Positions 14,066 through 30,607 of a stretch of DNA of 33,599 nucleotides are shown here, piece after piece (within the stretch, counting starts at the first letter, position 1; each line of letters opens with the position of its first letter). Made by a program: the position numbers and the translations under genes. The stretch is taken from positions 1-33,599 of the forward strand of contig NZ_LYVN01000032.1 of assembly GCF_001990265.1 (NCBI RefSeq). The letters run 5' to 3'. The stretch comes from Sphingopyxis sp. KK2 (GTDB lineage: Bacteria > Pseudomonadota > Alphaproteobacteria > Sphingomonadales > Sphingomonadaceae). The notes beneath the pieces were generated by a model that made no database searches, was not told where the DNA came from, and worked only from the letters and a program-made list of their open reading frames with translations.

Positions 14066-14094
14066 TTGACAATGAGAACGTTCTCATTTAGATA
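14066..14094 (+). promoter_or_regulatory. Promoter of the TonB receptor gene
   Basis: A perfect -35 hexamer TTGACA (14066-14071) is followed after exactly 17 bases by TAGATA (14089-14094), a weak -10. The spacer is almost wholly taken up by a perfect palindromic operator, which is the classic layout for repression by blocking RNA polymerase. Confidence 0.65.
14071..14088. promoter_or_regulatory. LacI-type operator, perfect 18-bp palindrome
   Basis: AATGAGAACGTTCTCATT is a perfect 18-base palindrome with the central CpG and AACGTT core typical of LacI/GalR operators. It lies between -35 and -10 of the receptor promoter. The likely ligand is the LacI regulator encoded at 22101. Confidence 0.8.
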
Positions 14095-14104
14095 ACGTTC
14101 ACAT
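14091..14104. promoter_or_regulatory. Second LacI-type operator of the receptor promoter
   Basis: GATAACGTTCACAT shares the AACGTT core with the palindrome 14071-14088 and is identical over 14 bases to 24402-24415 upstream of the GH3 gene. It overlaps the -10 region and expected start of transcription. Confidence 0.7.
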
Positions 14105-14151: not shown

Positions 14152-17100
14152 ATGCAGGCTCCGCATAAGCTTTGGCTCGCGAAGATTCTGGCCGGCACGT
14201 CGGCGGTGGCGCTGATGAGCGTGGCGCAGGTGGCGATGGCGCAGGAAGCGCCGGCCGAAGACAGCGCCGTCGATGGCGACGAAATCGTCGTCACCGGCAT
14301 CCGGGCCAGCCTTTCGGCGGCCGCCGACATCAAGCGCGACGCGCAGGGCGTCGTCGACGCGATCTCCGCCGAAGACATCGGCAAATTCCCCGACACCAAC
14401 CTCGCCGAATCGCTCCAGCGCATCACCGGCGTGTCGATCGACCGCTCGAACGGCGAAGGCTCGCTCGTCACGGTCCGCGGCTTCGGCCCCGAATTCAACC
14501 TTGTGACCCTCAACGGCCGCCAGATGCCGACCGCAGTGATCGGCGACGGCGGCAGCGCGCCCTCCTCGCGCTCGTTCGATTTCGCCAACCTCGCGTCCGA
14601 AGGCGTTGCGGCGGTCGAAGTCTACAAGAGCGGCCGCGCCACGATCGAATCGGGCGGCATCGGCTCGACGATCAACATCCGCACCCCGCGCCCGCTCGAC
14701 AAGCCCGGCATGCACGGCAGCATTTCGGCCAAGGCCGTCTATGACTCGTCGCGCAACGAGGGCAATCCGGTCACGCCCGAAGTGTCGGGCATCTTCAGCA
14801 CCACCTTCGCCGACGACACGATCGGCGTCCTGCTGATCGGGTCGTATCAGAAGCGCAAGTCGAGCACCAATTCGGCGAATGTCGGCTGGCGCGACGGCTA
14901 TCTTGGTTCGGAAAACAATTGGGGCTCGCTGGCGCAGCCGGGCACCCCGGGCGCTGCGCGTATCACCAACCGCCCCGACCCGACCGACGTCTATCAGGTG
15001 CCGCAGAACGCCTCCTACGACCTCAACGACATCAATCGCGAGCGCATCAACGGCCAGGCGGTGCTGCAATTCCGCCCCAGCGACGATCTGACCGCGACGA
15101 TCGATTACACCTATTCGCGCAACACCGTCGAAACGCGCAACAGCAACGTCGGCATCTGGTTCAACCATGAAAATACGACGAGCTCGTGGACCGACGGCCC
15201 GGTTGCCGGCCCGATCTTCTATTCCGAAGCCTTCCCGGCGCCGCCCGCTCCGCCGAGCACCACCGCGCTCAACGGCGGCAAGGACCTGTCGTACAGCGGC
15301 TCGCTCACCGAGAATCGTGCCGAGAACAAGTCGCTCGGCGGCAATCTCCACTGGGACGCCCCCGGCGGCGTCACCGTCGACCTCGACTTCCACCATTCGA
15401 CCGCGACGGTGAAGCCGGTCAACCGCTTCGGATCGAGCACCTCGGTCGGCAACGCCATCTTCGGCATCGCCAACCAGACGATCAATTTCGAGAACGACCT
15501 GCCGGTCCTCTCCTACAACATGCATCCCGGGATCGACCCGCTGAACGCGGCGCTGATCCAGTCGACCGGCAACGCCTTCCGCGCTGCCTATTTCCGCGAC
15601 CGGATCGATCAGGTCCAGTTGCGCGGCACCTATGACCATGAGGGCGGTTTCCTCGACAGCATCGACTTCGGCGTCTCCTATGTCGACAACAAGGTCCGCT
15701 CGGCGTTCGGGACGATCCAGAACGACACCTGGGGCGGGGCGGGGCCGGCTTCGGACATTCCCGACGACATCTTCACCCTCGAAACGCTGCCCGACAAATT
15801 CCCGGGCCTCGCACAGCCGGGGATGATCCAGAGCTTCTACAAGTTCGATTACGAGCGCATGGCCGACCTGATCGAGGATCTGTACGACGTGTGCAGCGAT
15901 CCGCAGACCGGCTCGGCCGCGGTGCCGGGCACCTGCATCGCCGCGTACAACACCGATCGCCGCATCAGCGAACGGACGCTCGCGCCCTATCTGCAGGTCG
16001 CGACCAAGTTCGACCTGTTCGACAACCCGGCGCATTTCGTCGCCGGCGTCCGCTACGAGGTGACCGACGTATCCTCGGCCGCGCTGGTTCCGGTTCCGAC
16101 CGGCACCCGCTGGGTCGGCGACAATGAATTCAACATCGTCTATTCGGGCGACAGCGACTTCACGCGCTTCAAGGGCTCATACAACAACTGGCTGCCGGCG
16201 TTCGACTTCGACTTCTCGCCGATCGACAACGTCAAGCTGCGCGCATCGTACAGCCACACGATCACCCGGTCCGACTATGCCAGCCTGCAGGGCGGGCGCA
16301 CGCTCGACACGCTGTTCCGCGTCGGCGGCGGCGGCGGGGCGCAGGGCAATCCGGGCCTCGTTCCGTACAAATCGAAGAATATCGATCTTTCGGCCGAATG
16401 GTATTATGCGCCGGGCAGCTATGTTTCGGCGGGCTATTTCCACAAGGATGTCAGCAACTTCATCTCGTCGACCCGTGTCGATAGCGAGGCGTTCGGGCTG
16501 ACCACTCCGGTCGGCGGGCCGCGCTGGAACGCCGCGCTCGCAGCGCTCGGGCAGAATGCGACCGTGTCGCAGATCCGCCAATATATCTTCGCCAATTTCC
16601 CCAATTCGGTGACGATTACCGGGGGCGGGCCGGGCACTTATGTCGGCACGATCGACAGCATTCCGGGCGACCCGCTGCTGAACTTCGAGATTTCGACCCC
16701 GATCAACAGCGACCAGACGGCGTCGCTCAACGGGTGGGAATTCGCGCTGCAGCACAGCTTCTGGGATACGGGCTTCGGCGTGATCCTGAACTATACGATC
16801 GTCAACGGCAGCGCGACCTATGACAACACCCAGCCGTCAACGGTGCCGCAGTTCGCGCTCACCGGGCTCAGCGACAGCGCCAATGCGGTCGCCTATTATG
16901 ACAAGAACGGGCTTCAGGCACGTGTGGCCTGGAACTGGCGCGACGAATTCCTCCAGGGCTCGGGGCCGAACCCGACCTATATCGAGGAATATTGGCAGAT
17001 CGACGCCAGCGCGAGCTACGAGTTCATGCCCGGCCTCACCGGTTTCGTCGAGGCGATCAACCTGACGGGTGAGGGACGCCGCGGGCATCTGCGCCACAAG

Positions 17101-17166
17101 AATAATGTCACCTTCGTGCAGCCGGGCTTCGCCCGCTATGCGGCGGGGGTCCGGTTCTCCTTCTAA
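14152..17166 (+). CDS. TonB-dependent receptor (TIGR01782-type, probable glycan importer)
   Basis: The 1004-residue protein is an outer-membrane active importer powered by TonB-ExbBD. A signal peptide ends at about residue 26 (VAMAQ). A TonB box-like DEIVVTGIRASL follows at about 43-54, then the plug domain with GKFPDTNLAESLQRITGVSI and VTVRGFGPEFNLVTLNGRQM, and a long beta-barrel ending in the outer-membrane signature with terminal phenylalanine (AGVRFSF). Size and plug sequence match the Xanthomonas/Caulobacter class of receptors often linked to carbohydrate use. GGGAGGG at 14138 is the ribosome site. Its promoter is controlled by LacI-type operators, and the neighbours point to a beta-glucoside or oligosaccharide. 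It is monocistronic, judging from the terminator right after it. Confidence 0.95.
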   Translation: MQAPHKLWLAKILAGTSAVALMSVAQVAMAQEAPAEDSAVDGDEIVVTGIRASLSAAADIKRDAQGVVDAISAEDIGKFPDTNLAESLQRITGVSIDRSNGEGSLVTVRGFGPEFNLVTLNGRQMPTAVIGDGGSAPSSRSFDFANLASEGVAAVEVYKSGRATIESGGIGSTINIRTPRPLDKPGMHGSISAKAVYDSSRNEGNPVTPEVSGIFSTTFADDTIGVLLIGSYQKRKSSTNSANVGWRDGYLGSENNWGSLAQPGTPGAARITNRPDPTDVYQVPQNASYDLNDINRERINGQAVLQFRPSDDLTATIDYTYSRNTVETRNSNVGIWFNHENTTSSWTDGPVAGPIFYSEAFPAPPAPPSTTALNGGKDLSYSGSLTENRAENKSLGGNLHWDAPGGVTVDLDFHHSTATVKPVNRFGSSTSVGNAIFGIANQTINFENDLPVLSYNMHPGIDPLNAALIQSTGNAFRAAYFRDRIDQVQLRGTYDHEGGFLDSIDFGVSYVDNKVRSAFGTIQNDTWGGAGPASDIPDDIFTLETLPDKFPGLAQPGMIQSFYKFDYERMADLIEDLYDVCSDPQTGSAAVPGTCIAAYNTDRRISERTLAPYLQVATKFDLFDNPAHFVAGVRYEVTDVSSAALVPVPTGTRWVGDNEFNIVYSGDSDFTRFKGSYNNWLPAFDFDFSPIDNVKLRASYSHTITRSDYASLQGGRTLDTLFRVGGGGGAQGNPGLVPYKSKNIDLSAEWYYAPGSYVSAGYFHKDVSNFISSTRVDSEAFGLTTPVGGPRWNAALAALGQNATVSQIRQYIFANFPNSVTITGGGPGTYVGTIDSIPGDPLLNFEISTPINSDQTASLNGWEFALQHSFWDTGFGVILNYTIVNGSATYDNTQPSTVPQFALTGLSDSANAVAYYDKNGLQARVAWNWRDEFLQGSGPNPTYIEEYWQIDASASYEFMPGLTGFVEAINLTGEGRRGHLRHKNNVTFVQPGFARYAAGVRFSF

Positions 17167-17199
17167 GGCGGGCCTCCACCCCGCGGATTTCCTGGCGAG

Positions 17200-17232
17200 A
17201 GAGCCGCTCCTCCAAAGAGGTGCGGCTCTTTT
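17200..17232 (+). terminator. Rho-independent terminator of the TonB receptor gene
   Basis: Arms AGAGCCGC (17200-17207) and GCGGCTCT (17222-17229) carry a second inner pairing (CCTC with GAGG) and are followed by TTTT (17229-17232). It lies 34 bases past the stop codon. Confidence 0.85.
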
Positions 17233-17259
17233 GCGTGACGCGGGGCGGGAGAAGGCATA

Positions 17260-17271: not shown

Positions 17272-18792
17272 ATGACAAGCGCAGTGGAGAGGGTGGTCAT
17301 TGTTGGCGGCGGCACCGCCGGCTGGCTCGCGGCTGCGCGCCTCGCCGCGGCGCGGCCTGCGCTCGCGGTGACATTGGTCGAGGCGCCCGACATCCCGACG
17401 ATCGGCGTGGGCGAGGGGACGTGGCCGACGATGCGCGCGACGCTCGCCGCGATCGGTATCACCGAGGGCGAATTTCTCGCCGCCTGCGATGGATCGTTCA
17501 AGCAGGGCTCGCGCTTCGACGGATGGGTCAGCGGCGCGGCGGACGACCGCTATCTCCATCCCTTCACCTCGCCGCCCGCGCTGCCGATGCGCGACCTGCT
17601 CGCGGCGTGGCAGGCGGTGGAGCCCGATCGCTCCTTCGGCGCCGCGATGACCGCGCAAGGTTCGGTCTGCGATCTCGACCTCGCGCCGCGCCAGCGGACG
17701 ATGCCCGATTATCAGGGCGCCGCGAACTACGCCTATCACCTCGACGCCGGAAAATTCGCGGCGCTGCTCCGCGATCATGCGACGCGGCGGCTCGGCGTGC
17801 GGCACATCGCCGACCATGTCACCGGGGTGCGGCGCGGCGACGGCGACAGCATCGCTGCGGTGATCGCGCGCGAGCATGGCGAGATCGCGGGCGACCTGTT
17901 CATCGATTGCACCGGCCATGCCGCGCTGCTGATCGGCGGCGAACTCGGCGTCCCCTGGATCGATCGCAGCGACACCCTGTTCAACGACCGCGCGCTCGCC
18001 GCGCAGGTCCCCGTCGCCGAGGGCAGCCCGATCGCGTCGCAGACGGTCTCGACCGCGCATGCGGCTGGCTGGATCTGGGACATCGGCCTGCCGGGGCGCC
18101 GCGGCATCGGCTGCGTCTATGCCAGCCGTTTCGTCGATGACGATGCAGCCGAGGCGACGCTGCGCGCCTATGTCGCACGCGTCCTGCCCGATGCGCCTGA
18201 GGTGCCTGTCCGCCGATTGAGCTTCCCGACCGGCCACCGCGCCCGCTTCTGGCAGGGCAATTGCCTCGCCATCGGCCTGTCGGCGGGCTTCATCGAACCG
18301 CTCGAGGCTTCGGCGATCGTGCTCATCGAATTGTCGCTCGACGCGCTGGTCGACAATTTCCCCGCCAGCGCCGACGCGATGCCGATCCACGCCGATCGCT
18401 TCAACACGCTGTTCCGCTATCGCTGGGACCGCATCGTCGAATTTCTGAAGCTCCATTATGTGCTGAGCCGGCGCACCGAACCCTATTGGCTGGCGCAGCG
18501 CGATCCGGCGTCGGTGCCGCCGCGCCTCGCCGCGATGCTCGCGCTGTGGCGCGACCAGCCGCCGTCGGCATGGGATTTCCCGCAGGTCGACGAGATTTTC
18601 TCGGCCGCGAGCCACCAATATATCCTCTATGGCATGGGCTATCCGCTTCCGGCCGGCCCCGCTGCCAGCGACCGCGCCCGCGCGGCGCTCGCCGAACAGC
18701 GCCAGCGCGCCCGCTCGCTCGCCTCGGCGCTGCCGACCAACCGCGACTATCTCGACGCACTCACCGGGGCCGCCGCGACGGCGGCCGAATGA
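17272..18792 (+). CDS. Flavin-dependent halogenase 1 (tryptophan halogenase family, PF04820)
   Basis: The family uses FADH2, oxygen and halide to make hypohalous acid that a lysine delivers to an aromatic substrate. The 506-residue protein has the FAD-binding [14 protein letters not shown] at residues 8-21, [10 protein letters not shown] at 45-54, a lysine in SFKQGSRF (Lys77) where PrnA has Lys79, and Glu345 in EPLEASAI where PrnA has Glu346. The WxWxIP signature reads WIWDIGLP at 267-274, so the proline of the motif is replaced by glycine. It is first in a four-gene operon with SapC, an FIH-like protein and a second halogenase. The start at 17272 has no well-spaced ribosome site (GGGAGAAGG lies 16 bases upstream), so the true start could differ slightly. 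The natural substrate is unknown. Confidence 0.93.
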
Positions 18793-18802
18793 AGGACCCC
18801 GA

Positions 18803-19522
18803 ATGACCCGCCACGCCGCGCTCGATACCAACAGCCACCGCGACCTGCGCGTCCGCACCGACGCGGGCGCCGACCTCGGCGACGCGGTGATGGCGACGCT
18901 GACCGTGCCGAGCGAGTTTCGCCAGGTCCAGGCGCATTATCCGATCCTCTTCCGCCGCGAGACCGGGCAGGACAGCTTCATCGCGATGGCGCTGTTCGGC
19001 TTCGAACCCGGGGAAAATCTCTATCTCGACGGCGGCCGCTGGGACGCGCGCTATCGTCCGCTATCGGCAGCGATCCAGCCCTTCCTCGTCGGCCGTCCGG
19101 CGCATGGCGAGGGACCGGCGCAGGTGCATATCGACCTCGATCATGCGCGTATCGCGGCGGGCGGCGAAGGCGTGCGCCTGTTCGACGCCGATGGCCAGGC
19201 GACGCCCTATCTGGAGGATATCGCCGCCAAGCTCGGCGCGCTCGACGAGGGCTATCGTGCGAGCGCCGACTTTTTCGCCGCGCTGCGCGACCATGACCTG
19301 CTCGAACCCTTCACGCTCGAAGTCACGCTCGACGATGGCTCGGTCAATTCGCTCGTCGGCTTCCACATCATCGACGAGGCGAAATTGCAGGCGCTCGATT
19401 CCGAGACCGCCGGCAAGCTTCACGCCGCCGGCCATCTGATGCCGATCTTCATGGCGCTCGCCTCGCTGTCGCAGCTCGCGCCGCTGATCGAGCGCAAGAA
19501 TCGCAGGCTCGGCCATGGCTGA
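18803..19522 (+). CDS. SapC family protein
   Basis: This 239-residue protein matches the SapC family (PF07277), named after a Campylobacter surface-layer gene and widespread beside TonB receptors and tryptophan halogenases. Recognisable parts are FRQVQAHYPILFRR (about residues 34-47), the acidic GFEPGENLYLDGG, RPLSAAIQPFLVG, and the C-terminal GFHIIDEAKLQAL with a final helix. No signal peptide or membrane segment is visible, so it is probably cytoplasmic. The ATG at 18803 lies ten bases after the halogenase stop, and its end overlaps the next gene by eight bases. Biochemical function is not established. Confidence 0.9.
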   Translation: MTRHAALDTNSHRDLRVRTDAGADLGDAVMATLTVPSEFRQVQAHYPILFRRETGQDSFIAMALFGFEPGENLYLDGGRWDARYRPLSAAIQPFLVGRPAHGEGPAQVHIDLDHARIAAGGEGVRLFDADGQATPYLEDIAAKLGALDEGYRASADFFAALRDHDLLEPFTLEVTLDDGSVNSLVGFHIIDEAKLQALDSETAGKLHAAGHLMPIFMALASLSQLAPLIERKNRRLGHG

Positions 19523-20546
19523 ACGCGACGGCGCGATCTACGACCGCCTTGCGCTCGTGCCCGAGCGCGACCAGGAAAAGGGGGCAGGGCTCGACGCGTT
19601 GCTGGAAGGCGCGCGCGAGCCCTTTGTCCTGCGTGGCCTCGTCGCCGACTGGCCGCTGGTGCAGGCGGCGAAACGCTCGGCGCGCGCGGCGCGCCAGCAT
19701 CTGCTCGACCATGCCCGCGACCGGCCCTTTGCGGTGTCGATCGGCGCGCCGGGGCACGACGGGCGGCTCTTCTACGACGCCGACATGGCGATGAACTTCC
19801 GCTCGGGGACCGGCAAGCTGCCCGACATCTTCGCCGGCATCGACACCGCCGAGGAGCGCGGCGAAGATCGCACCGTCTATCTCGCCTCGATCGACATCCC
19901 GGCGCATTTCGACGGGCTCGACACCGCCAACCCGATCGACCTCGGCGACCGCAACCCGCTCAAGAGCATCTGGATCGGCACCAGGACGCGCATCGCCGCG
20001 CACAATGATTTCCCCGACAATCTCGCCTGCTGCGCCGCGGGCCGCCGCCGCTTCACGCTCTTTCCGCCCGATCAGTTCGCCAACCTCTATCTCGGCCCGA
20101 TCGACAACACCCCGGCGGGGCGCGCGGTCAGCATGGTCGATTTCGACGCGCCCGACCTTGCCGCTTTTCCGCGTTTCGTCGAGGCGATGGCGCACGCGAT
20201 GACGGTCGAGCTCGACCCCGGCGACGCGCTCTTCATCCCGTCGATGTGGTGGCACCATGTCGAGGGGCTCGAACCCTTCAACATCCTTGTCAATTACTGG
20301 TGGCGCAGCACCCCGGCTTTCCTCGGCCAGCCGCAGGAAGCGCTCAATCACGCGATCCTCGCGATCCGCGACCTGCCCGACGCCGACAAGACGATCTGGC
20401 GCGCCTTGTTCGACCATTATGTGTTCGAAAACGACGGCAGCGTCGCCGACCATATTCCCGAAGCCGCGCGCAGCATCCTCGCGCCGCTCACCCCCGAAAG
20501 CGCCGGGCGCCTCCGCGCCTTCCTCCTCAGGAGCCTCAGCCGATGA
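19515..20546 (+). CDS. Cupin-like / JmjC domain protein resembling FIH hydroxylase
   Basis: This 343-residue protein has a Cupin_8/JmjC-type double-stranded beta-helix. The iron triad is visible as His163 and Asp165 in AAHNDFPDN and His247 or His248 in IPSMWWHHVEGL. Between them stand LFPPDQFANLY and a VDFDAPD...FPRF segment. This succession closely resembles the asparaginyl hydroxylase FIH of animals, so a 2-oxoglutarate and Fe(II)-dependent hydroxylase is expected. Family members of this type hydroxylate protein or small-molecule targets; the target here is unknown. It overlaps SapC by eight bases and halogenase 2 by four (ATGA), so all three proteins are likely made together. Confidence 0.9.
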   Translation: MAERDGAIYDRLALVPERDQEKGAGLDALLEGAREPFVLRGLVADWPLVQAAKRSARAARQHLLDHARDRPFAVSIGAPGHDGRLFYDADMAMNFRSGTGKLPDIFAGIDTAEERGEDRTVYLASIDIPAHFDGLDTANPIDLGDRNPLKSIWIGTRTRIAAHNDFPDNLACCAAGRRRFTLFPPDQFANLYLGPIDNTPAGRAVSMVDFDAPDLAAFPRFVEAMAHAMTVELDPGDALFIPSMWWHHVEGLEPFNILVNYWWRSTPAFLGQPQEALNHAILAIRDLPDADKTIWRALFDHYVFENDGSVADHIPEAARSILAPLTPESAGRLRAFLLRSLSR

Positions 20547-22039
20547 CCGACAAGAAACAGCGCATCGTCATCGCGGGCGGCGGCACCGCCGGCTGGATGG
20601 CCGCCGCCGCGATCGCGCGCACCATGGGCGCAGCGGTCGACCTGACGCTCGTCGAGTCCGAAGCGATCGGCACGATCGGCGTCGGCGAAAGCACGATCCC
20701 GCCGCTCGTCAACTACAACCGGTTGCTCGGGATCAACGAGGCCGATTTCATGCGCGCGACGCAGGCGACCTTCAAGCTCGGCATCCTCTTCGACAATTGG
20801 AAGGAGCCGGGCCACCGCTATTTTCACAGCTTCGGGCTGACCGGCAAGGATCACTGGTCGGCGGGATTCCAGCATTTCTGGCTCCACGGCCGGACGCGCG
20901 GGCACGACCAGAGCTATGACGATTATTGCATGGAACTCGTCGCCGCGATGGAGGGCAAGTTCGCGCATCTGCCCAACGAAGGCATCAATTACGCCTATCA
21001 GCTCGATTCCGGCCTCTACGCCCGCTTCCTGCGCCAGATGGCGGAGGCCGACGGCACGAAGCGGATCGAGGGCAAGATCGCGCGCGTCGAACTCGACGGA
21101 GAGAGCGGCGACATCGCCGCGCTCGTCCTCGACGGCGACCGGCGGGTCGAAGGCGATCTCTTCCTCGACTGCACCGGCTTTCGTGCGCTGCTTATGGAGG
21201 GCGCGCTCCATGCCGGCTTCGACGACTGGACCCACTGGCTACCGTGCGACAGCGCGATCGCGCTCCAGACCCCGAACGTCCGCCCGCCGGTGCCCTATAC
21301 GCGTGCGATGGCGCATGACGCCGGCTGGCAATGGCGCATCCCGCTCCAGCACCGCACTGGCAACGGCCTCGTCTATTGCAGCCGCTACCTCGATCGCGAC
21401 GCCGCGCTCGAGCGATTGCTCGGCAATATCGAGGGCGAGGCGCTGACCGAGCCCAATTTCCTGCGCTTCACCACCGGGGTCCGCCGCCGCCAATGGTATC
21501 GCAACTGCGTCGCGGTCGGGCTGTCGAGCGGCTTTATGGAACCGCTCGAATCGACGAGCATCCACCTGATCCAGCGCGCGGTGCTGCGCTTCATCCGCAT
21601 GCTGCCTCTCGGCAAGGTCAGCGAACGCGACATCGCCGAATATAACGACCAGCAGATGCAGGATAATCTGCAGATCCGCGACTTCCTGATCCTCCATTAT
21701 AAGGCGACCGAGCGGCGCGACAGCGCCTTCTGGCGCCAGTGCGCCGACATGCCGATCCCCGACAGCCTCGAACAGAAGATCGAGCTGTTCCGCGAAACCG
21801 GTCGCGTCTTCCGCCGCAACGAGGAATTGTTCGCCGAGAACAGCTGGGTCCAGGTGATGATGGGGCAGGGGATCGAACCGCAGAGCCATCACCCGATCGC
21901 GACCAAGCTTGGCGATGAGGAACTCGCGCGCTTCCTCGGCGGCATTCGCGACAATGTCCGCGACACCGTGGCGAAACTGCCCGACCATCATGCCTATGTC
22001 GCGCGCTATTGCGGCGCGTCGGTGCCGCAGGCGGCGTGA
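20543..22039 (+). CDS. Flavin-dependent halogenase 2 (tryptophan halogenase family, PF04820)
   Basis: This 498-residue protein is the second halogenase of the operon. It has RIVIAGGGTAGWMAA at residues 7-21 for FAD, GVGESTIPPL near residue 47, Lys78 in TFKLGILF as the likely halogenating lysine, the intact WxWxIP motif (Trp262-Pro267, WQWRIP) and Glu336 in EPLESTSI. It is therefore closer to the classical motif set than its neighbour at 17272. Related enzymes from Brevundimonas (BrvH), Sphingomonas and Xanthomonas halogenate free indoles in vitro, with bromide preferred. Its physiological substrate is unknown. The ATG at 20543 overlaps the preceding stop. Confidence 0.94.
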   Translation: MTDKKQRIVIAGGGTAGWMAAAAIARTMGAAVDLTLVESEAIGTIGVGESTIPPLVNYNRLLGINEADFMRATQATFKLGILFDNWKEPGHRYFHSFGLTGKDHWSAGFQHFWLHGRTRGHDQSYDDYCMELVAAMEGKFAHLPNEGINYAYQLDSGLYARFLRQMAEADGTKRIEGKIARVELDGESGDIAALVLDGDRRVEGDLFLDCTGFRALLMEGALHAGFDDWTHWLPCDSAIALQTPNVRPPVPYTRAMAHDAGWQWRIPLQHRTGNGLVYCSRYLDRDAALERLLGNIEGEALTEPNFLRFTTGVRRRQWYRNCVAVGLSSGFMEPLESTSIHLIQRAVLRFIRMLPLGKVSERDIAEYNDQQMQDNLQIRDFLILHYKATERRDSAFWRQCADMPIPDSLEQKIELFRETGRVFRRNEELFAENSWVQVMMGQGIEPQSHHPIATKLGDEELARFLGGIRDNVRDTVAKLPDHHAYVARYCGASVPQAA

Positions 22040-22100: not shown

Positions 22101-23159
22101 ATGGGGCGTCGGCGGCAGTCGGTGACGATCAAGCATGTGGCTGCCGACGCGGGGGTGTCGCTGCAGACGGTGAGCCGCGTCATCAACGACGAACCCAATG
22201 TGCGCCCCGAGATGAAGGAACGCGTCCAGGCGTCGATCGACAAGCTGGGCTATGTCCCCTCGATCGCGGCGCAGCGGATGAGCGGATCGCGTTCCTATCT
22301 GATCCTCGCGATCAACGACCGCGACCGCACCATTGCCGACTGGAACGCGCGCGAAGGCACCGACTGGGTCGACCAGATGCTCTTCGGCGGCATGCTCAAA
22401 TGCGCCGAGCTCGGTTACCGGATGATCTTCGAACTGGTCGATACCCACCACGACCATGTCGAGCGCGAACTGCGCGCGATCATCGCCGCGCTCCAGCCCG
22501 ACGGGGTGATCCTGACCCCGCCGCACTCGGACAATCCGCTGATCGTCGCGCTGCTCCACCAGCAGAAAATTCCCTTCGCGCGCATCGGCTCGCACGGCGG
22601 CGACGCCGGCATCGCGCTGACGATGGACGACGAAGGCTCGGCGGCGCTCGCGACGCGGCACCTCGTTGACCTTGGCCACAAGCGCATCGGCTTCATCTCG
22701 GGCTCGGTCGAATATGACCTCAGCCACTGGCGCATCGACGGCTGGCGCGCCGAGATGGCGGCGGCGGGGCTGCCGACCGACGACCTGCTCGCCGAGGGCG
22801 ATTTCAGCGCCGCTTCGGGTGCGATCGCCGCGCACCAGCTGCTCGCGCTCGCCGACCGCCCGACCGCGATCATCGCCAGCAACGACCAGATGTCGCTCGC
22901 GACGCTCGCCGTCGCGCGCGAACGCGGGCTCGATGTGCCGCGCGACCTGTCGCTGGTCAGCTTCGACAACACCCCGATCGTCCGCTTCACCCCGCCGGGG
23001 CTGACCGCGGTCGACCAGCCGATCGCCGCGACGGTGTCGCGCGCGGTCGAACTCATCATCGCCGCGCAGCGCGGCGAACCCCGGCCGCATGCCCCCACCG
23101 TCGTGAACGGCAGCCTGATCGAGCGCGGCTCGACCGCGCCGCCGCCGCGCCATGGCTGA
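22101..23159 (+). CDS. LacI family transcriptional regulator
   Basis: The 352-residue protein has the LacI helix-turn-helix at about residues 8-30 (VTIKHVAADAGVSLQTVSRVIN), the hinge segment near residues 50-62 (YVPSIAAQRMSG), and a periplasmic-binding-protein-like sugar-sensing domain with DGVILTPP, HLVDLGHKRIGFISG and DLSLVSFDNTPI. It is expected to repress the receptor and the GH3 gene, and perhaps the halogenase operon, by binding the AACGTT-core operators at 14071, 14091 and 24402, with relief by a sugar from the imported glycan. It starts 61 bases after halogenase 2 and overlaps the following MFS gene by eight bases. Confidence 0.95.
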   Translation: MGRRRQSVTIKHVAADAGVSLQTVSRVINDEPNVRPEMKERVQASIDKLGYVPSIAAQRMSGSRSYLILAINDRDRTIADWNAREGTDWVDQMLFGGMLKCAELGYRMIFELVDTHHDHVERELRAIIAALQPDGVILTPPHSDNPLIVALLHQQKIPFARIGSHGGDAGIALTMDDEGSAALATRHLVDLGHKRIGFISGSVEYDLSHWRIDGWRAEMAAAGLPTDDLLAEGDFSAASGAIAAHQLLALADRPTAIIASNDQMSLATLAVARERGLDVPRDLSLVSFDNTPIVRFTPPGLTAVDQPIAATVSRAVELIIAAQRGEPRPHAPTVVNGSLIERGSTAPPPRHG

Positions 23160-24345
23160 CGCGGCTGCGCCGCAGCGCCAGTCGTTCGGCTTCCTCCTGC
23201 TTTACGCGCTCGCCTGGGCGGGCGGCGCGATCGCCTATGTGCCCTTCCTGACCATATTGCTGCCCGTGCGGATGACCGCGCTCGCGGGGGCGAACGACAT
23301 TCAGGCGCTGGGTTATGTGACCTTCTTCGGCGCGATCGCGGCGAGCAGCGGCGGGGTGCTCTTCGGCTGGCTCAGCGACCGCACGCGGAGCCGGCGCGGG
23401 TGGGTGGTCGCGGGGCTGCTGCTCACCATCGCGTTGCTGCTCGCCGTGCCGCTGGCGAGCGACGTGCCGTCGCTGATCGCGATCATCATCGCCTGGCAAC
23501 TCGCGCTCAACATGATGCTCGCGCCGCTCGCCGCCTGGGCGGGCGACTGCGTGCCCGACGGGCAAAAGGGGCTGCTCGGCGGGCTGCTCGCCTTCTCGCC
23601 CGCGCTCGGCGCGCTGTCCTGCGCCTTCGTCACGATTCCGGGGCTCGCCGATGCCGACGGTCGCCTTGTGCTCGTCGCATTGCTCGTCGCCGGCGCGGTG
23701 CTGCCCGTGCTGCTGCTCGGCCGGCCGCGCGCCTTTCCCGAACTGAGCGCGCCGGTCGCGGTCGGGGCCGGGACCGACGAACAACGCCCCGCCTCGACCA
23801 TCGCGCGCATGTGGAGCGCGCGCCTGCTCGTCCAGATCGCCGAGGCGGCGCTCTTCGCCTATCTCTTCTTCTGGTTCCGCTCGATCGAACCGGCGATCAC
23901 CGACAGCGAGACCGCGCGGCTGTTCAGCCTCGTCCTCACCATCGCGGTGCCGCTGGCGCTGCTCGCGGGGCGCTGGGCCGACCGCAGCGGGCGCCCGATC
24001 CTGCCGCTGGTGATCTGCGCGGGCGTCCTCACCCTCGGCCTCGCCGCGATGGCGCTGTCCGAAACGCTGCTCGCAGCGAAGCTCAGCTATGTCGTCTTCG
24101 GCGTCGCAGCGACGATCTTCCTGTCGCTCCACAGCGGCCAGACCTTGCGCGTGCTGCGCCGTCCCGAGCGGCGCGGCCGCGACCTCGGGCTGTTCAACCT
24201 CACCAATACGGTGCCGTCGCTGATCATGCCCTGGCTCACCATCTCGCTGGTCCCGGGCTTCGGTTTCGACGCGCTGTTCCTGCTGCTCGCCGCGCTGGCG
24301 AGCATCGCCGTACTGCTCCTCGCCACGATGCCGCGGCTGCGCTGA
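23152..24345 (+). CDS. MFS transporter
   Basis: This 397-residue membrane protein has about 11-12 hydrophobic helices and the MFS signature between helices 2 and 3 (GWLSDRTRSRRGWV, about residues 70-83). A second related loop (GRWADRSGRPILP) sits halfway along. The pattern fits a sugar or GPH-like porter of the major facilitator superfamily. It starts inside the end of the LacI gene and lies in the glycan locus, so inner-membrane uptake of a glucoside or glucose product is likely, but the substrate cannot be read from the sequence. Confidence 0.88.
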   Translation: MADAAAPQRQSFGFLLLYALAWAGGAIAYVPFLTILLPVRMTALAGANDIQALGYVTFFGAIAASSGGVLFGWLSDRTRSRRGWVVAGLLLTIALLLAVPLASDVPSLIAIIIAWQLALNMMLAPLAAWAGDCVPDGQKGLLGGLLAFSPALGALSCAFVTIPGLADADGRLVLVALLVAGAVLPVLLLGRPRAFPELSAPVAVGAGTDEQRPASTIARMWSARLLVQIAEAALFAYLFFWFRSIEPAITDSETARLFSLVLTIAVPLALLAGRWADRSGRPILPLVICAGVLTLGLAAMALSETLLAAKLSYVVFGVAATIFLSLHSGQTLRVLRRPERRGRDLGLFNLTNTVPSLIMPWLTISLVPGFGFDALFLLLAALASIAVLLLATMPRLR

Positions 24346-24401
24346 TAGCGCAATCAAACGGACGCTTGATTTCATTCACATGCTATGCGACAGGAGATTT
24401 T

Positions 24402-24415
24402 GATAACGTTCACAT
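24402..24415. promoter_or_regulatory. LacI-type operator upstream of the GH3 gene
   Basis: GATAACGTTCACAT is identical over 14 bases to the second operator of the TonB receptor promoter (14091-14104). It lies about 33 bases before the GH3 start, linking this gene to the same regulon. No convincing -35/-10 pair could be assigned here. Confidence 0.75.
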
Positions 24416-24447
24416 AATGGTTCGTACAAAGAGGGATGGGAGAGACG

Positions 24448-26934
24448 ATGCGGCGTTCCGCACTTGCCATGACGACGGCTCTTTTGCTGGCAGGCACCGC
24501 CACCACGGCGGCTTCGCAGTCGACCGACACCGATAGCGCAAGGGTCCATCCCGAACTTTGGCCCGCGGCGAAAAGCCCCGCGGCGATCACCGACGCGGCG
24601 ACTGAAAAGCGCATCGACGCGCTGCTCGCGAAAATGACGATCGAGCAAAAGGTCGGCCAGCTCGTCCAGGGCGACATCAGCACGATCACCCCCAGGGATC
24701 TCGAAACCTATCCGCTCGGCTCGATCCTCGCCGGCGGCAACAGCGGCCCCAATGGCAATGAACGCTCGAGCGCCGCCGACTGGGCGAAACTCGTCGGCGA
24801 ATTCCGCGCCGTGTCGCTGAGGCCGCAGGCGAACGGCGTCGCGATCCCGATCATCTTCGGGGTCGACGCCGTCCACGGCCATAACAATATCCCCGGCGCG
24901 ACGCTGTTCCCGCACAATATCGGGCTCGGCGCGGCGCATGATCCCGAACTGGTCCAGCGCATCGGCGCGGTCACCGCCGCCGAAATCGCGGGCAGCGGCA
25001 TCGAATGGACCTTCGCCCCGACGCTCGCGGTGCCGCAGGATCTGCGCTGGGGTCGCAGCTACGAAGGCTATGCCGCCGATCCGAAACTCGTCGCCGACTA
25101 TGCCAAAGCGATGGTCGTCGGGCTGCAGGGCCAACTCGTCGCCGGCAAGGTTGTCGGCAAGACGCATGTCGCCGCGACCGCGAAGCATTTCCTCGCCGAC
25201 GGCGGCACCGACGGCGGCCGCGACCAGGGCGATGCCAAGGTCGACGAGGCCGAACTGATCGCCAAACACGCGATGGGCTATCCCGCCGCGATCGACGCCG
25301 GCACGCTCACCGTCATGGCCAGCTTCTCGAGCTGGCAGGGGATCAAGCATCACGGCAATCAGGGGCTGCTGACCGACGCGCTCAAGAAAAAGATGGGCTT
25401 CGACGGCTTCGTCGTCGGCGACTGGAACGGCCATGGCCAGGTCGCGGGCTGCAGCGTTACCGATTGCCCGCAGTCGATCAACGCCGGGCTCGACATGTTC
25501 ATGGCGCCCGACAGCTGGAAAGGCCTTTACGAAACCACGGTCAAACAGGCGAAGGACGGCACCATATCCGCTGCGCGCCTCGACGACGCGGTGCGCCGCA
25601 TCCTGCGCGTGAAGTTCAAGCTCGGACTGTTCGATGCCGATCATGGCGGCCGCGGCGATTTCGCGGCGGTCGGCGCGCCCGCACATCTCGCGGTCGCGCG
25701 CGAGGCGGTGGCGAAATCGCTCGTCCTTATCAAGAACAATGGCAATGTCCTGCCGATCAAGGCGGGCGCCCGCGTCCTCGTCACCGGACCCGGCGCCGAC
25801 AGCATGGCGATGCAGTCGGGCGGCTGGACGATCAGCTGGCAGGGCACCGACGTCACCCACGCCGACTTTCCCAACGGCCAGACGATCTGGGAAGGACTCG
25901 ACAAGGCGGTGCGCGAAGCCGGCGGCGTCGCGACGCTGTCCGAAGGCGGCGTCTACAAGGAAAAGCCCGACGTAGCGATCGTCGTCTTCGGCGAGGCGCC
26001 CTATGCCGAGTTCCAGGGCGACGTGCCGACGCTCGATTACCAGCCGAGCGATGCGACCGACCTTGCGACGCTCAAGAAGCTCAAGGCCGCGGGCATTCCG
26101 GTGGTCGCGCTGTTCCTGTCGGGTCGCCCGATGTTCACCAGCCCCGAAATCAACGCCGCCGATGCCTTTGTCGCCGGCTGGCTTCCGGGGTCGCAGGGGG
26201 CGGGCGTCGCCGACGTGCTCGTCGCGGGCAAGAACGGCAAGACGGCGCGCCCCTTCACCGGGACTTTGCCCTTCGCTTGGCCCGCCGACGCGCGCTCGCC
26301 GGTCGAAAAGCCGCTCTTCGCCACCGGCTACGGCCTCAAATATGGTGAGAACAAGCCCGTCGGACCGCTGTCCGAAGACATGGGCATCGACGTCGCCGCC
26401 GCGCTCAATGTCGAAACCTATTTCGCCGGCGGCCGCGCGCGCGCGCCATGGGTGCTCACCGTCACCGACGCGGGCGGCTCGCGCCCCGTCGAATCCGCCC
26501 CGGTATCGAGCCCCGGCGGGCTGATCGAGGCACGCTCGGTCGATGTGAAGGCGCAGGAGGACGGCAAGAGCTTCGTCTGGACCGGCCCCGCCGCCTTCCA
26601 TCTTTCGGGCCCCTATGCCGACCTGACGCGCCAGCTCAACAACAGCTTCGCGCTGCGCGTCGAGTGGCGCGTCGATGCGCCCGGCACCGGCCCGGTCACG
26701 CTCGCGATGGGCGGGCAGGCGTTCGACATCTCGGACTGGGTCAAGGCCGCGCCCAAGGGTCAGGTCAGTTCGTTCCGCATCCCGCTGCGCTGCTTCGCCG
26801 ATGCGGGCGCCAATCTGACCAAGCTCGACTATGCGCTCAGCCTCAGCGCCGACAAGGGTTTCGCCGCCACCTTGCTACATTCGAATGTGCAGGCGGTGGG
26901 CGAGAATCTGCCTTGCCCGCCAAAGGCGAAATGA
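24448..26934 (+). CDS. Glycoside hydrolase family 3, exported beta-glucosidase (glucan 1,4-beta-glucosidase-like)
   Basis: The enzyme releases glucose from beta-glucosides. From the ATG at 24448 it has 828 residues: signal peptide MRRSALAMTTALLLAGTATT, GH3 N-terminal barrel (about 45-370) with FGVDAVHGHNN and the nucleophile Asp325 in VVGDWNGHG, GH3 C-terminal domain (about 400-620), and a C-terminal beta-sandwich of about 170 residues like the galactose-binding-type domain of ExoP-type glucosidases. GGGAGAG precedes this start; an in-frame ATG at 24436 would add four residues and lacks a well-placed ribosome site. The signal peptide puts the enzyme in the periplasm or outer membrane, downstream of the TonB receptor. 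An AACGTT operator precedes it and an MFS sugar porter follows 44 bases later. Confidence 0.95.
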   Translation: MRRSALAMTTALLLAGTATTAASQSTDTDSARVHPELWPAAKSPAAITDAATEKRIDALLAKMTIEQKVGQLVQGDISTITPRDLETYPLGSILAGGNSGPNGNERSSAADWAKLVGEFRAVSLRPQANGVAIPIIFGVDAVHGHNNIPGATLFPHNIGLGAAHDPELVQRIGAVTAAEIAGSGIEWTFAPTLAVPQDLRWGRSYEGYAADPKLVADYAKAMVVGLQGQLVAGKVVGKTHVAATAKHFLADGGTDGGRDQGDAKVDEAELIAKHAMGYPAAIDAGTLTVMASFSSWQGIKHHGNQGLLTDALKKKMGFDGFVVGDWNGHGQVAGCSVTDCPQSINAGLDMFMAPDSWKGLYETTVKQAKDGTISAARLDDAVRRILRVKFKLGLFDADHGGRGDFAAVGAPAHLAVAREAVAKSLVLIKNNGNVLPIKAGARVLVTGPGADSMAMQSGGWTISWQGTDVTHADFPNGQTIWEGLDKAVREAGGVATLSEGGVYKEKPDVAIVVFGEAPYAEFQGDVPTLDYQPSDATDLATLKKLKAAGIPVVALFLSGRPMFTSPEINAADAFVAGWLPGSQGAGVADVLVAGKNGKTARPFTGTLPFAWPADARSPVEKPLFATGYGLKYGENKPVGPLSEDMGIDVAAALNVETYFAGGRARAPWVLTVTDAGGSRPVESAPVSSPGGLIEARSVDVKAQEDGKSFVWTGPAAFHLSGPYADLTRQLNNSFALRVEWRVDAPGTGPVTLAMGGQAFDISDWVKAAPKGQVSSFRIPLRCFADAGANLTKLDYALSLSADKGFAATLLHSNVQAVGENLPCPPKAK

Positions 26935-26978: not shown

Positions 26979-28472
26979 ATGGCATTGGCGCCGAACGTCG
27001 CGACGAGTGCGGGCCCGGATGCGGGCGGAACCGATGGCAGGAGCCGAGGCAGCACGCTGGTCGTGCTGGTCCTCGCCTTTGCGGTCTTTTTCCTGCTCGG
27101 CGGGGTGACCAACATCAACGACCTCTTAGTCGGCAAGTTCAAGTCGATGTTCCACCTGACGCACGCGCAGGCGAACCTCGTCCAGATGGCGTTCTTCATC
27201 GCCTATGGCGCCTTTTCGATCCCTGCCGGGATCATCATGTCGAAACTCGGCTATATCCGCACCTTCGTGCTCGGCTTCGTCATCATCGCGGCAGCCGCCT
27301 TCCTGTTCGTGCCCGCGTCGGCAGCCGCCTCCTACCCCGGCTTTCTCGCCGCGCTCTTCTGCATCGGCGCGGGGATCACCGTGCTCCAGGTGGCGATGAA
27401 CCCGGTGATCACCACGCTCGGCCCGGCCAGGACCTCGCACAGCCGGCTGACCTTCGCGCAAGCGTTCAATTCGGTCGGCGTCTTCCTGATGGTTTATGGC
27501 GGCGCGACCTTCCTGCTCGGCGACGGCAAGCCGCTCGACCCCGAAACCTCGACCGATGTGCAGATCCAGGCCTATCGCGTCGCCGAAGGGGCGTCGATCG
27601 GCACGGCTTACATGTGGCTCGGTATCCTGATGCTCGTCATCGCGGCGATCTTCTGGTTCAACCGCTCGGCGCTCGACCATGCCAAGGCCGATGCGATGAA
27701 GCTCGAGGGCACGTGGGACCTGCTCACCCACAACCGCCGCGTCCAGCTCGGTGCGCTGTGCATCTTCGTCTATGTCGGCGCCGAAGTCGCGATCGGCTCG
27801 AACCTCATCGCCTATCTCGGCGACCAGAGCGTGATGGGGCTGGGGCTCCAGGCCGCGGGCAAGCTCGTCGCCATCTACTGGCTCGGCGCGCTGATCGGCC
27901 GCATTCTCGGCGGCTTCATCCTCAGAACATCGGTCGTGAAAATGCCGTTTGTGATTCTGTCGGGAATTGCTGTTGGCGCGGCAGTAATAAATCTCATCAA
28001 CCAACAGAACTTTGGCGCACTCGCCATGCTGGCGGGCCTGTGCGCGATAATTTATGGGCTCTTTTTCGCGATCCATAGGCTTGAACAGCTACTACAGTTG
28101 GACAAGCAGGAAGCGGTGGCACCAGGCAAAATCCTGAGTGCATTCGCTTTGGGGGCAATTGGCTTGGTGGTTTTGTCGGCGGTGACGACGGGCGCATTGT
28201 CGGGCTGGGCGCTGATCCTCGTCGGCTTCTGCAACTCGCTGATGTTCCCGACGATCTTCAGCCTCGGGACCGAGGGGCTGGGCGATCGCACGCCGCAGGC
28301 CTCGGGCATCCTGTGCACCGCGATCATCGGCGGCGCGATCGTGCCCTTCCTGTTCGGGCTAGTCGCCGATATCGATCTCCGCCTCGCGCTCGCGGTGCCG
28401 CTCGTCTGCTATGCGATCATCGCGGGCTTCGGGCTGTGGGCGGCGCGCCAGCAGGCGGCCGCCTCGGCCTGA
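26979..28472 (+). CDS. FucP/GluP-type sugar MFS transporter
   Basis: The 497-residue protein has about twelve membrane helices. Its first helix and loop, GGVTNINDLLVGKFKSMF followed by QANLVQMAFFIAYG, are typical of the FucP/GluP sugar:proton symporter family. ITVLQVAMNPVITTLGP and the later SNSLMFPTIFSLGTEGL-like region (GFCNSLMFPTIFSLG) support this. It is longer than the common 410-440 residues because of an N-terminal tail of about 25 residues and an extended loop near residues 175-205. It follows the GH3 gene and probably imports the glucose or glucoside released. Bases 27921-28200 inside it have clearly lower GC and unusual codons (AGA, AGG, ATA, CTA, GTA, TTG), although the frame is intact. 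Confidence 0.93.
   Translation: MALAPNVATSAGPDAGGTDGRSRGSTLVVLVLAFAVFFLLGGVTNINDLLVGKFKSMFHLTHAQANLVQMAFFIAYGAFSIPAGIIMSKLGYIRTFVLGFVIIAAAAFLFVPASAAASYPGFLAALFCIGAGITVLQVAMNPVITTLGPARTSHSRLTFAQAFNSVGVFLMVYGGATFLLGDGKPLDPETSTDVQIQAYRVAEGASIGTAYMWLGILMLVIAAIFWFNRSALDHAKADAMKLEGTWDLLTHNRRVQLGALCIFVYVGAEVAIGSNLIAYLGDQSVMGLGLQAAGKLVAIYWLGALIGRILGGFILRTSVVKMPFVILSGIAVGAAVINLINQQNFGALAMLAGLCAIIYGLFFAIHRLEQLLQLDKQEAVAPGKILSAFALGAIGLVVLSAVTTGALSGWALILVGFCNSLMFPTIFSLGTEGLGDRTPQASGILCTAIIGGAIVPFLFGLVADIDLRLALAVPLVCYAIIAGFGLWAARQQAAASA
27921..28200. other. Low-GC patch inside the FucP-type transporter gene
   Basis: Hand counts of 60-base blocks give about 47, 60, 53 and 58 percent GC, against roughly 65-70 percent on either side. 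Codons rare elsewhere in the window (AGA, AGG, ATA, CTA, GTA, TTG) cluster here. The open reading frame and membrane topology continue through it. It looks like an intragenic recombination tract. Confidence 0.7.
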
Positions 28473-29110: not shown

Positions 29111-30607
29111 TCAGGCCGCCAATATGCCGTTCGGTCCCATGCCGATATCGTCGCCATTCGCCCAGACGCTGTGCGTGCCGGCGCAGATGCGCTCGGGCAG
29201 GATGATCCGGCACACCGGTCCCGCCGCGATATCCCTGGCGTCGATCAGCACGCATTCGGATCGGTCGGCCTCGAGGTCGGCGACGAAGGAGACCAGATAG
29301 CCGTCGTCCTCCTGTGTGGCACCGATGCGCGGCGCGAAGGGCGCCTCGCTGCCGAAGCGGCCGGGGCCGAATTCATAGTCCTCGCTTGTCCGCGCCTCGA
29401 GGTCGTGCTTCACCAGCCCGCGAAACAGGAACCAGCCGGGCTCGGGGATCGCGCTATAGGCGTAACGATAGCGCCGCCCCGCGTGGCGCTGGTTCAGCAT
29501 CCCGAATTCGAGGTTGCGGTCGTCGAGCCGTTCCTCGGTCGTTGCGCCGGTCACCAGGTTGAAACGCCAGCGGTGGAGCCGCGGCCGGATCAGGTCCTGA
29601 TCGAGATAGGCCATCATCCGTTCATAGCCTGCGGGCGCGTCGGGCCGCGACTTCGGCATCGGTTCTTCCTGATAATAGCCGTCGAGGATGATCTCGTCGC
29701 CTTCCTCCCACGCGTTCAGCCAGTGCAGCGTGTAGGTCGGCTCGGCCTCGAACCAGCGGATATCCTCAGGCTGGCCTTGGCGCGGGATGATCGCGAAGCG
29801 CGTCTTTTCGTCGGGATGGAATTGCACGACGTGCAGCCGTTTTTCGAGCAGTTCGGGGCTCCAATAGAGCGGCATGTCGTTGAGGATCGCGTAATTTTCG
29901 GTGAAGGCCATGTCGTGCGGCAGGCGCGGTCCGGGCAGCGGCACCGGGATATAATGTTTGAGCCTGTTGTCCGCGCCGACGACGCCATAATGCATGAAGG
30001 GCGCGTGCTTCGAATAGTTGAAGAACAGCAGTTCGCCAGTCGCGGGGTCGACCTTGCAATGCGCCGAAATGCCGTCGAGCGGCACCCAGCTTTCGGTACC
30101 ATGCTGTTCGAGCGTGAAGGGATCGAGCCGATAGGCCTCGCCGCACTGGTAGAAGGTCGAGATGATCTTGCCCGCATGGATCGCGACGTCGGTCGACGAA
30201 CTGTCCTTCAGCCACTCCTGCGCGCCCCAGCCGTGGCGCGTCGATTTGTGCGGCGGCTCCATCAGCCCCGCCCATAGCGATCGGCCCGCTTCCTTCTCGG
30301 CCTCGAACCCCTTGGTCCGCACGAAACGGCTGCGATAGCTCGCGCGCCCGTCCTTGAACGATATCGCGTGGATGAACCCGTCGCCGTCGAAGGGGTGATA
30401 GCGCCCGATCGGCTCATGGACCTGGTTCTCGCCGGTGCGCACATAGACGCCGTCGATGTCGTCGGGGATCGTGCCGATCACTTCGGCATCGCCATTGGCG
30501 AAGATCGCATTCCATTCGTTGAACGTCGGCCGCCAGGCGCCCTGCATATAGGGGTGATCGTTCGGCTGGATGGTCGACTGGATCGTCTCGACGAGCTCGG
30601 CGGTCAT
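29111..30607 (-). CDS. Carotenoid oxygenase family protein
   Basis: Enzymes of this family (PF03055) cleave a C=C bond of carotenoids, apocarotenoids or stilbenes with a non-heme iron held by four histidines in a seven-bladed propeller. All four are visible in the 498-residue protein: His183 (ISAHCKVDP), His231 (LPHDMAFTENY), His295 (LHWLNAWEEGD) and His479 (AGTHSVWAN). The start is the ATG at 30607 (MTAELVETI), preceded by GGGGAGA; the 16 residues upstream are Arg-rich and unlike the family. There is no signal peptide, so it is cytoplasmic. It follows the sulfatase by 94 bases on the same strand and may be cotranscribed. Whether the substrate is a carotenoid or a lignostilbene-type compound cannot be told. 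Confidence 0.93.
   Translation of the reverse strand: MTAELVETIQSTIQPNDHPYMQGAWRPTFNEWNAIFANGDAEVIGTIPDDIDGVYVRTGENQVHEPIGRYHPFDGDGFIHAISFKDGRASYRSRFVRTKGFEAEKEAGRSLWAGLMEPPHKSTRHGWGAQEWLKDSSSTDVAIHAGKIISTFYQCGEAYRLDPFTLEQHGTESWVPLDGISAHCKVDPATGELLFFNYSKHAPFMHYGVVGADNRLKHYIPVPLPGPRLPHDMAFTENYAILNDMPLYWSPELLEKRLHVVQFHPDEKTRFAIIPRQGQPEDIRWFEAEPTYTLHWLNAWEEGDEIILDGYYQEEPMPKSRPDAPAGYERMMAYLDQDLIRPRLHRWRFNLVTGATTEERLDDRNLEFGMLNQRHAGRRYRYAYSAIPEPGWFLFRGLVKHDLEARTSEDYEFGPGRFGSEAPFAPRIGATQEDDGYLVSFVADLEADRSECVLIDARDIAAGPVCRIILPERICAGTHSVWANGDDIGMGPNGILAA

Follow-up and report, generated by a model that had tools for sequence, protein, structure and literature searches.

A SapC, halogenase and hydroxylase gene cassette linked to one subfamily of TonB-dependent receptors, with a possible role in receptor maturation

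Introduction

Why should a bacterial locus for sugar uptake encode two halogenases and a hydroxylase? The question is raised by a stretch of 33,599 nucleotides from Sphingopyxis sp. KK2 (contig NZ_LYVN01000032.1), called the window below, which is the entire contig C32 of a draft genome of 4.34 Mb. On the 3' side of a gene for a TonB-dependent receptor, and on the same strand, the window carries a quartet of genes in the order hal1, sapC, cupin8 and hal2. The four genes form a coherent unit that has been inherited together with one subfamily of receptors, and a role in the maturation of that receptor is tentatively proposed here. The genes in question are the following.

14152..17166, + strand: TonB-dependent receptor of the TIGR01782 (TonB-Xanth-Caul) subfamily (Pfam match; TIGR01782, 641.5 bits with a curated cut-off of 310; clade membership; structure model with a predicted local distance difference test score, pLDDT, of 83.1)
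17272..18792, + strand: hal1, PF04820 flavin halogenase-like protein of the 9ltb/2pyx group (Pfam, 393.5 bits, cut-off 21)
18803..19522, + strand: SapC family protein, PF07277 (Pfam, 218.7 bits, cut-off 28.9)
19515..20546, + strand: cupin8, FIH-like Fe(II)/2-oxoglutarate hydroxylase, Cupin_8 family PF13621 (227.8 bits, cut-off 27.4; motif HND...H)
20543..22039, + strand: hal2, PF04820 flavin halogenase of the Xcc4156/BrvH group (Pfam, 618.8 bits, cut-off 21, with the open reading frame (ORF) taken as 20540-22039)

The initial annotation of this DNA had described four genes joined by overlaps or a ten-base gap, and the coordinates agree: hal1 ends at 18792, 10 bases before the ATG of sapC at 18803, sapC and cupin8 overlap by 8 bases (19515-19522), and the ATG of hal2 at 20543 leaves an overlap of 4 bases with the cupin8 stop codon, so that the space inside the quartet is at most 10 bases throughout. 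Its assignment of the products to two flavin adenine dinucleotide (FAD) halogenases, a SapC protein and an Fe(II)/2-oxoglutarate-type protein is borne out by Pfam matches far above the cut-offs, and the epithet "FIH-like" is right at the sequence level (E 2.6e-20 for cupin8 with human FIH). None of the four proteins has an obvious signal peptide when inspected by eye, and they are therefore taken as cytoplasmic.

A gene set inherited with one receptor subfamily

Scanning named genomes with a profile confirmed at least 557 SapC loci, the best 80 of which (the near set) were scored gene by gene with HMMER. SapC is present in all 80 by construction; cupin8 was found in 79, hal2 in 77, the receptor in 77, a LacI-like regulator gene (above 400 bits) in 76 and hal1 in 68. 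Orthologues of two sugar genes of the window, a GH3 hydrolase (above 600 bits) and an MFS transporter (above 300 bits), were found in 39 and 37 loci, respectively. Contig ends explain the three missing receptors, the missing cupin8 and two of the three missing hal2 genes, the third locus (L114) being truly without hal2. In 11 near loci, L114 included, hal1 is truly absent and the order is receptor-SapC-cupin8, and a twelfth (L126) starts at a contig end. Within the 59 loci of at least 20 kb, which have full flanks, the counts were 59 for the receptor, 59 for cupin8, 58 for hal2, 58 for LacI, 50 for hal1, 31 for the GH3 orthologue and 29 for the MFS orthologue. On these counts the enzymes are more tightly tied to the receptor than the sugar-processing genes are.

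The same association was seen at greater distance. SapC occurs in 104 of 299 genomes of the phylum, and 60 SapC loci from families other than that of the window (one to three per genome, chosen to spread the families) were read as a distant set. A halogenase of at least 550 bits was present in 13 of them, and in 13 of these 13 a receptor lies in the same gene run; locus L181, with a weaker halogenase match (233 bits), has no receptor. The ten distant loci with cupin8 all contain a halogenase and a receptor as well. Six halogenase-free SapC loci had a receptor match by a broader profile, which was weak or distant in L165, L167, L169, L193 and L208 and strong and divergent in L201. The full set recurs in L192, L194, L198 and L200, SapC-cupin8-hal2 without hal1 in L168, L209, L210, L211, L223 and L224, and hal1 with SapC only in L195, L196 and L221. 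Throughout the near and distant sets, a cupin8 gene beside SapC came with hal2 wherever the contig allowed, except in L114. SapC is the element common to two sub-modules, one consisting of hal1 and the other of cupin8 and hal2, each of which occurs with or without the other. Among SapC records on plasmids, 8 of 38 were opened; receptor and halogenase were present in five and absent in three. The co-occurrence of these families with TonB receptors, a survey of which had been suggested with the initial annotation, is not sporadic: the quartet is conserved and receptor-linked across proteobacterial families, and the cassette is almost certainly a real conserved unit.

The receptors point the same way. 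A FastTree phylogeny of 91 receptors, in which 23 of the 80 near loci are included, placed the cassette receptors of several families in one clade of 48 rows (support 100). Controls were drawn from 40 TIGR01782 receptor loci, comprising all listed matches above the cut-off in three genomes, 8 of 14 in a fourth and one from the genome of KK2, which itself has 70 receptor matches; no cassette-free control fell inside the clade. One cassette receptor, L196, lies outside it. As regards single receptors, L163 and L209 have the cassette, L221_13538 is a tandem mate, and L131_14361 and L313 have no SapC beside them. The 299 genomes were also searched with a receptor profile (A4), which derives from 12 cassette receptors and to that extent is still biased; at most two candidates were scored per genome. 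The search gave 32 matches of at least 620 bits, after which the score drops to 361; these matches were assigned by score, and part of them was also placed on the tree. SapC lies beside 27 of the 32, of which 20 are in loci that were read and contain a halogenase (the window included) and seven were identified from SapC coordinates.

L313 shows a different arrangement: two hal2-type halogenases and a gene like cupin8 come after the receptor, and SapC is missing.

Relatives of the four proteins

To our knowledge, the label tryptophan halogenase is attached to many PF04820 genes from environmental Proteobacteria for which no product is known. In a tree of 81 halogenases, which takes six of the 80 near loci and the remainder from other sets, 22 SapC-linked hal1 sequences form one clade (support 98) and 27 SapC-linked hal2 sequences another (support 92). 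The other 32 halogenases fall outside both clades; for most of them, absence of SapC means that none was seen within a flank of 1.5 kb. Besides the hal2 of the window, 29 PF04820 loci were fetched, four of which are weak matches left unscored by the models. The remaining 25 consist of 14 with a receptor ORF within 1.5 kb, three cassettes, three runs of halogenases and five with nothing within 1.5 kb, so halogenases without SapC often adjoin receptors too. The genome of KK2 encodes a third halogenase on contig C45 (L013 10751-12391), which is 43% identical to hal1 and keeps EPLEST.

The closest structures to hal2 are Xcc4156 (6y1w, 693.7 bits), 9luq and BrvH (6frl, 466.3 bits). Xcc4156 and BrvH are orphan indole-brominating halogenases with which hal2 aligns over nearly its full length, and the alignment with 6y1w keeps the lysine and EPxEST motifs. 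Their native substrates are stated as unknown in excerpts of PMC7336383. BrvH also adjoins a second halogenase gene, according to excerpts of PMC5945002, whereas term searches of the main text of both papers returned neither SapC nor TonB. For hal1 the closest structures are 9ltb (736.6 bits), 2pyx (465 bits) and then 9lu2. The first two are deposited as tryptophan halogenases and have the EPLEAS motif in common with hal1. No function for 2pyx or 9ltb was found in the literature searched, and 9ltb, 9lu2 and 9luq were absent among the matches listed.

Two halves of a hal2-type halogenase were observed at contig ends elsewhere in the KK2 genome, on C199 (L015 1-843) and C232 (L016 1-783); these are probably pieces of a single gene that the assembly broke up. 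On C199 there are also genes for what we take to be phage terminase- and portal-like proteins.

Motif conservation in hal1, hal2 and cupin8 was counted after aligning each of these proteins of the window with 60 of its relatives (n = 61). HxD...H is the metal triad of Fe(II)/2-oxoglutarate hydroxylases, and the HND of cupin8 together with the distal histidine is present in 61 of 61 sequences. Both the profile match and the triad place cupin8 in this class. It shares the triad with FIH/JmjC-type hydroxylases and differs from them by its bacterial operon context.

The SapC family takes its name from the S-layer gene sapC of Campylobacter. By sequence, the SapC of the window has no relative in the PDB (the best matches, to haemoglobin with E 0.042, are taken as chance), and its structure model, which is confident (pLDDT 95.8), gave no PDB match with Foldseek (best E 0.15). 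A SapC-like match is present in 147 of 149 genomes of the family to which the window belongs. KK2 itself has a second, stand-alone SapC on contig C198 (L014 4233-5063), near a gene that we take to be FAD-linked oxidase-like.

A possible role in receptor maturation

The initial annotation had suggested an aromatic or protein target for the quartet, such as residues of the receptor. The reading that we favour, tentatively and at somewhat less than an even chance, is that the operon of a glycan TonB receptor carries its own receptor-maturation cassette and that this cassette acts on the receptor. The three enzymes would work in the cytoplasm. SapC would be their shared adaptor, holding on to the unfolded receptor (or to another surface protein destined for export) and presenting it to them. 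Before Sec export, the halogenases could oxidise or halogenate exposed tryptophan or other aromatic side chains and the FIH-like enzyme could hydroxylate asparagine, aspartate or histidine, and the modified receptor might then fold, bind glycan or resist attack better.

This reading is preferred because the receptor is the constant partner, because FIH-type enzymes act on proteins, and because SapC without halogenases can adjoin giant proteins of an exported type, which is a hint and is considered below. It is preferred also because the solved relatives of hal2 have open sites and refuse free tryptophan, with peptides proposed as their substrates (excerpts of PMC7336383), and because there is a precedent in QhpG, a halogenase-like flavoprotein of the qhp operon that dihydroxylates protein tryptophan in the cytoplasm before export (excerpts of PMC7876137). 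QhpG is the best NCBIfam match of hal1, with a score of 43.9 bits (29 bits for hal2) that lies far below the equivalog cut-off of 240, and, in a further difference from the qhp operon, no radical S-adenosylmethionine (SAM) or amine dehydrogenase family was seen among the 20 window proteins scanned.

Residues that might be modified were sought by comparing 57 clade receptors with five solitary ones (strong profile matches without the cassette, see below) and 40 controls, a few of which lie outside TIGR01782. The 57 include L201, which has a divergent SapC and no halogenase, L114, which has no halogenase, and the tandem mate; L201 is counted among the eight without hal2 and L114 is left out of the 48 with hal2. 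All 48 receptors with hal2 have W527, D378 and Q615, and none of the eight without it does. W336 and W401 are conserved in clade receptors regardless of hal2, as is W929, which is lost in the four basal receptors L158, L162, L201 and L412. All 57 clade receptors share N928 and R924, and four of the five solitary receptors carry substitutions at both (N928 to A or S, R924 to K). Because these four have further changes in common and seem to be a single lineage, the two residues are not used as proof. The receptor model places W527 in a long loop predicted with lower confidence, and W336 and N928-W929 at strand ends that are followed by longer connections, from which all of them would probably be extracellular. 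W336, W527, W929, N928 and D378 are regarded as candidate modification sites, not as evidence. As for hal1, the top column was S428 and the best tryptophan column W862. The latter is tryptophan in 75% of the 71 near receptors with hal1 and in 18% of the 11 without, and is split 50/50 among distant loci, so that tracking of hal1 by these residues was rejected.

A number of observations weigh against receptor maturation. Anchoring the survey on SapC favours its near neighbours, which the comparison cannot remove. GH3-like and MFS-like matches of any strength are present in 50 and 51 of the 59 full-flank loci, so that exchange for more distant genes, rather than loss, is the usual fate of the sugar genes, and LacI is kept as firmly as the enzymes (58 of 59). 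Five of the 32 strong receptor matches (L404, L406, L407, L408 and L411) have neither SapC nor a halogenase within about 7 kb, although four of the five genomes carry the cassette elsewhere (L414, L192, L194 and L412), and L201 combines SapC and a clade receptor with no halogenase. Among the 40 TIGR01782 loci the full set was found in four, a halogenase without SapC in four and neither in 32. Around the hal1-type halogenase on C45 there is no receptor, no cupin8 and no credible SapC in 18 kb. At the residue level, W527 and D378 are kept in all five solitary receptors, the split in W527, D378 and Q615 is consistent with one deep branch, which corresponds roughly to loci of the beta-glucan type, and no receptor column tracks hal1. 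Lastly, an ORF of more than 2,500 amino acids lies next to SapC in only 3 of 47 loci outside the cassette set. The suggestion made at the outset is partly supported: a protein or aromatic target fits the data better than sugar catabolism, but tests at the level of single residues were negative or confounded by phylogeny.

Receptor maturation can also be put in broader terms, namely that Proteobacteria halogenate and hydroxylate outer-membrane sugar receptors before export by means of a SapC-guided cassette, and that this is the native role of Xcc4156/BrvH-type halogenases; in this form the claim is doubtful. A post-translational modification system of this kind for TonB receptors was not found in the open-access literature among the matches listed. 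Excerpts of PMC11337851 contain speculation on a halogenase in virus-receptor interactions and do not name SapC.

Other explanations

The enzymes might instead modify a small aromatic molecule, such as the aglycone of a plant or algal glucoside, a signal or an antibiotic, that is taken up or released together with the glycan. Small aromatics are the classical substrates for halogenation by PF04820 enzymes, and the locus contains a GH3 beta-glucosidase-type gene. Relatives of the halogenases brominate indoles in vitro (excerpts of PMC5945002 and PMC7336383). The sugar enzymes were followed in 20 flanking proteins, 16 from cassette loci and four from receptor-free SapC loci, which cover part of the neighbours. 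Loci with the full set often carry GH3, GH1 or GH16 enzymes. Of the loci with the full set or hal2, L168, L192, L194, L198, L200 and L223 gave GH3-Exop_C, GH1 or GH16; in L209, L210, L224, L405, L410 and L097 the scan showed a peptidase, transporters, a histidine kinase, a DNA polymerase or nothing. Loci of the hal1-SapC type have an agarase, a melibiase or GH20 (L195, L412 and L196), and those on plasmids galactosidases, an agarase or GH95. The sugar enzymes thus vary while the quartet or its hal1-SapC half is constant. The glycan served by that half differs from locus to locus, and this speaks against the glycan being its substrate. Moreover, no biosynthetic or aromatic-degradation family was present among the 20 window proteins scanned. 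Among the same 20 there was no core biosynthetic enzyme or precursor of a natural-product cluster or a cluster for ribosomally synthesised and post-translationally modified peptides, in a scan that did not search short peptides outside the quartet. The FIH-like enzyme and SapC would have no obvious role in a small-molecule pathway, and we consider this explanation unlikely. Halogenation of the sugar itself was rejected on general chemical grounds.

According to a second explanation, the cassette modifies another envelope protein common to such loci (TonB, ExbD, a porin or a secreted hydrolase) and the receptor is merely linked to it. Apart from halogenases, SapC adjoins giant proteins annotated as a haemagglutinin (L159) and a LEPR-XLL protein (L164), both in plasmid loci, and RTX-repeat giants in L180 and L205. 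SapC is also beside or near a very large ORF in L181, and in a plasmid locus of Rhodospirillum it lies upstream of ABC transporter genes. With the low count by ORF size given above, the giant neighbours are a hint only. The five solitary receptors would also fit a target other than the receptor. However, the receptor phylogeny matches the cassette and the receptor is its constant neighbour, so that this explanation is rather improbable.

Rated likewise as rather improbable is the view that the halogenase folds are flavin monooxygenases or redox sensors which, together with SapC, regulate receptor assembly. We take the motifs GxGxxG and WxWxIP, the catalytic lysine and glutamate, and the serine-threonine halide site after EPLE to have their usual meaning in halogenases. 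In hal1, GxGxxG, the lysine and the glutamate are present, and WIWDIG and EPLEAS replace WxWxIP and EPLEST; its alignment keeps GxGTAG, FK, WxWDI and EPLE.S, the alanine of EPLEAS being found in 97% of the 61 sequences. These replacements, like the match to QhpG, favour a monooxygenase or sensor. On the other side, the lysine and both EPLE glutamates are invariant (61 of 61) in both hal1 and hal2, and the hal2 of the window keeps the full canonical set of GxGxxG, WxWxIP, catalytic lysine and EPLEST. The hal2 alignment retains GxGxxG, WxWRIP, TFKLG and EPLE.T, with EPLEST in 49, EPLEAT in 10 and EPLEPT in one of the 60 relatives.

That the quartet consists of passenger genes without linked function in an ordinary carbohydrate-utilisation locus, as the standard set of LacI, MFS, GH3 and receptor genes might suggest, is highly improbable in view of its retention across families and clade-level co-inheritance.

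Regulation and neighbouring genes

The sugar genes and the predicted control elements of the locus are as follows.

14073..14086 (palindrome) and 14090..14103, + strand: two LacI-type operator sites in the receptor promoter region (pattern scan; AACGTT conserved at the receptor start)
17195..17234, + strand: strong hairpin with a terminal T run in the gap between receptor and hal1, a possible attenuator (the gap as a whole has z -3.7)
22101..23159, + strand: LacI-family regulator (Pfam)
23152..24345, + strand: MFS sugar transporter, the orthologue often replaced between loci (Pfam)
24401..24414, + strand: third LacI-type operator, before GH3 (pattern scan of window and genome)
24436..26934, + strand: GH3 beta-glucosidase-type hydrolase with Exop_C domain (Pfam)
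26979..28472, + strand: second MFS transporter, FucP/GluP-like (profile matches, Pfam and NCBIfam)

Receptor, LacI, transporter and glycoside hydrolase genes are the general content of CUT-type carbohydrate-utilisation loci with TonB receptors, and the locus in the window has these in common with them. Unlike the window locus, the CUT loci of PMC1790865 are described in a main text in which a term search found no halogenase, SapC, Pass1 or hydroxylase. An RPE65-type carotenoid oxygenase gene (window 29111-30655, - strand) adjoins the sugar locus.

The operator pattern WGAKAACGTTCWCA, which was written from the sites themselves, has two exact matches ahead of the receptor, at 14073 and 14090, and one ahead of GH3, at 24401. 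If up to two mismatches are allowed, the window has six matches at four places, two of them palindromic and counted on both strands, against 0.37 expected in shuffled sequences. In the whole genome the exact 13-base form occurs nowhere but at these three places, and with one mismatch there are eight matches in all against one for the reversed control. Of 75 related loci, 72 have AACGTT within 460 bases at the start of the receptor gene (background 0.07 per such stretch). Control of the receptor promoter by LacI is well supported by these predicted sites, and the probable LacI control of the initial annotation can be upheld there. AACGTT within 250 bases 3' of the receptor, before hal1, was found in 3 of 66 loci; the site immediately ahead of hal1 in the window (17262) is thus not conserved, and control of hal1 through a site of its own was dropped. 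An operator-like site with one mismatch at the start codon of the C45 halogenase was treated as chance.

A home-made rule, applied without a control, detected a hairpin followed by T residues after the receptor in 47 of 77 related loci, and the terminator scan did not list the hairpin at 17195..17234. The pattern may fit much receptor and little enzyme; given the hairpin between receptor and hal1, the enzymes may be expressed below the level of the receptor.

Significance

The linkage to a receptor and the partnership with SapC give the orphan PF04820 halogenases a concrete, testable target. If the receptor is indeed modified, protein halogenation would be a routine part of nutrient uptake, with SapC as its adaptor.

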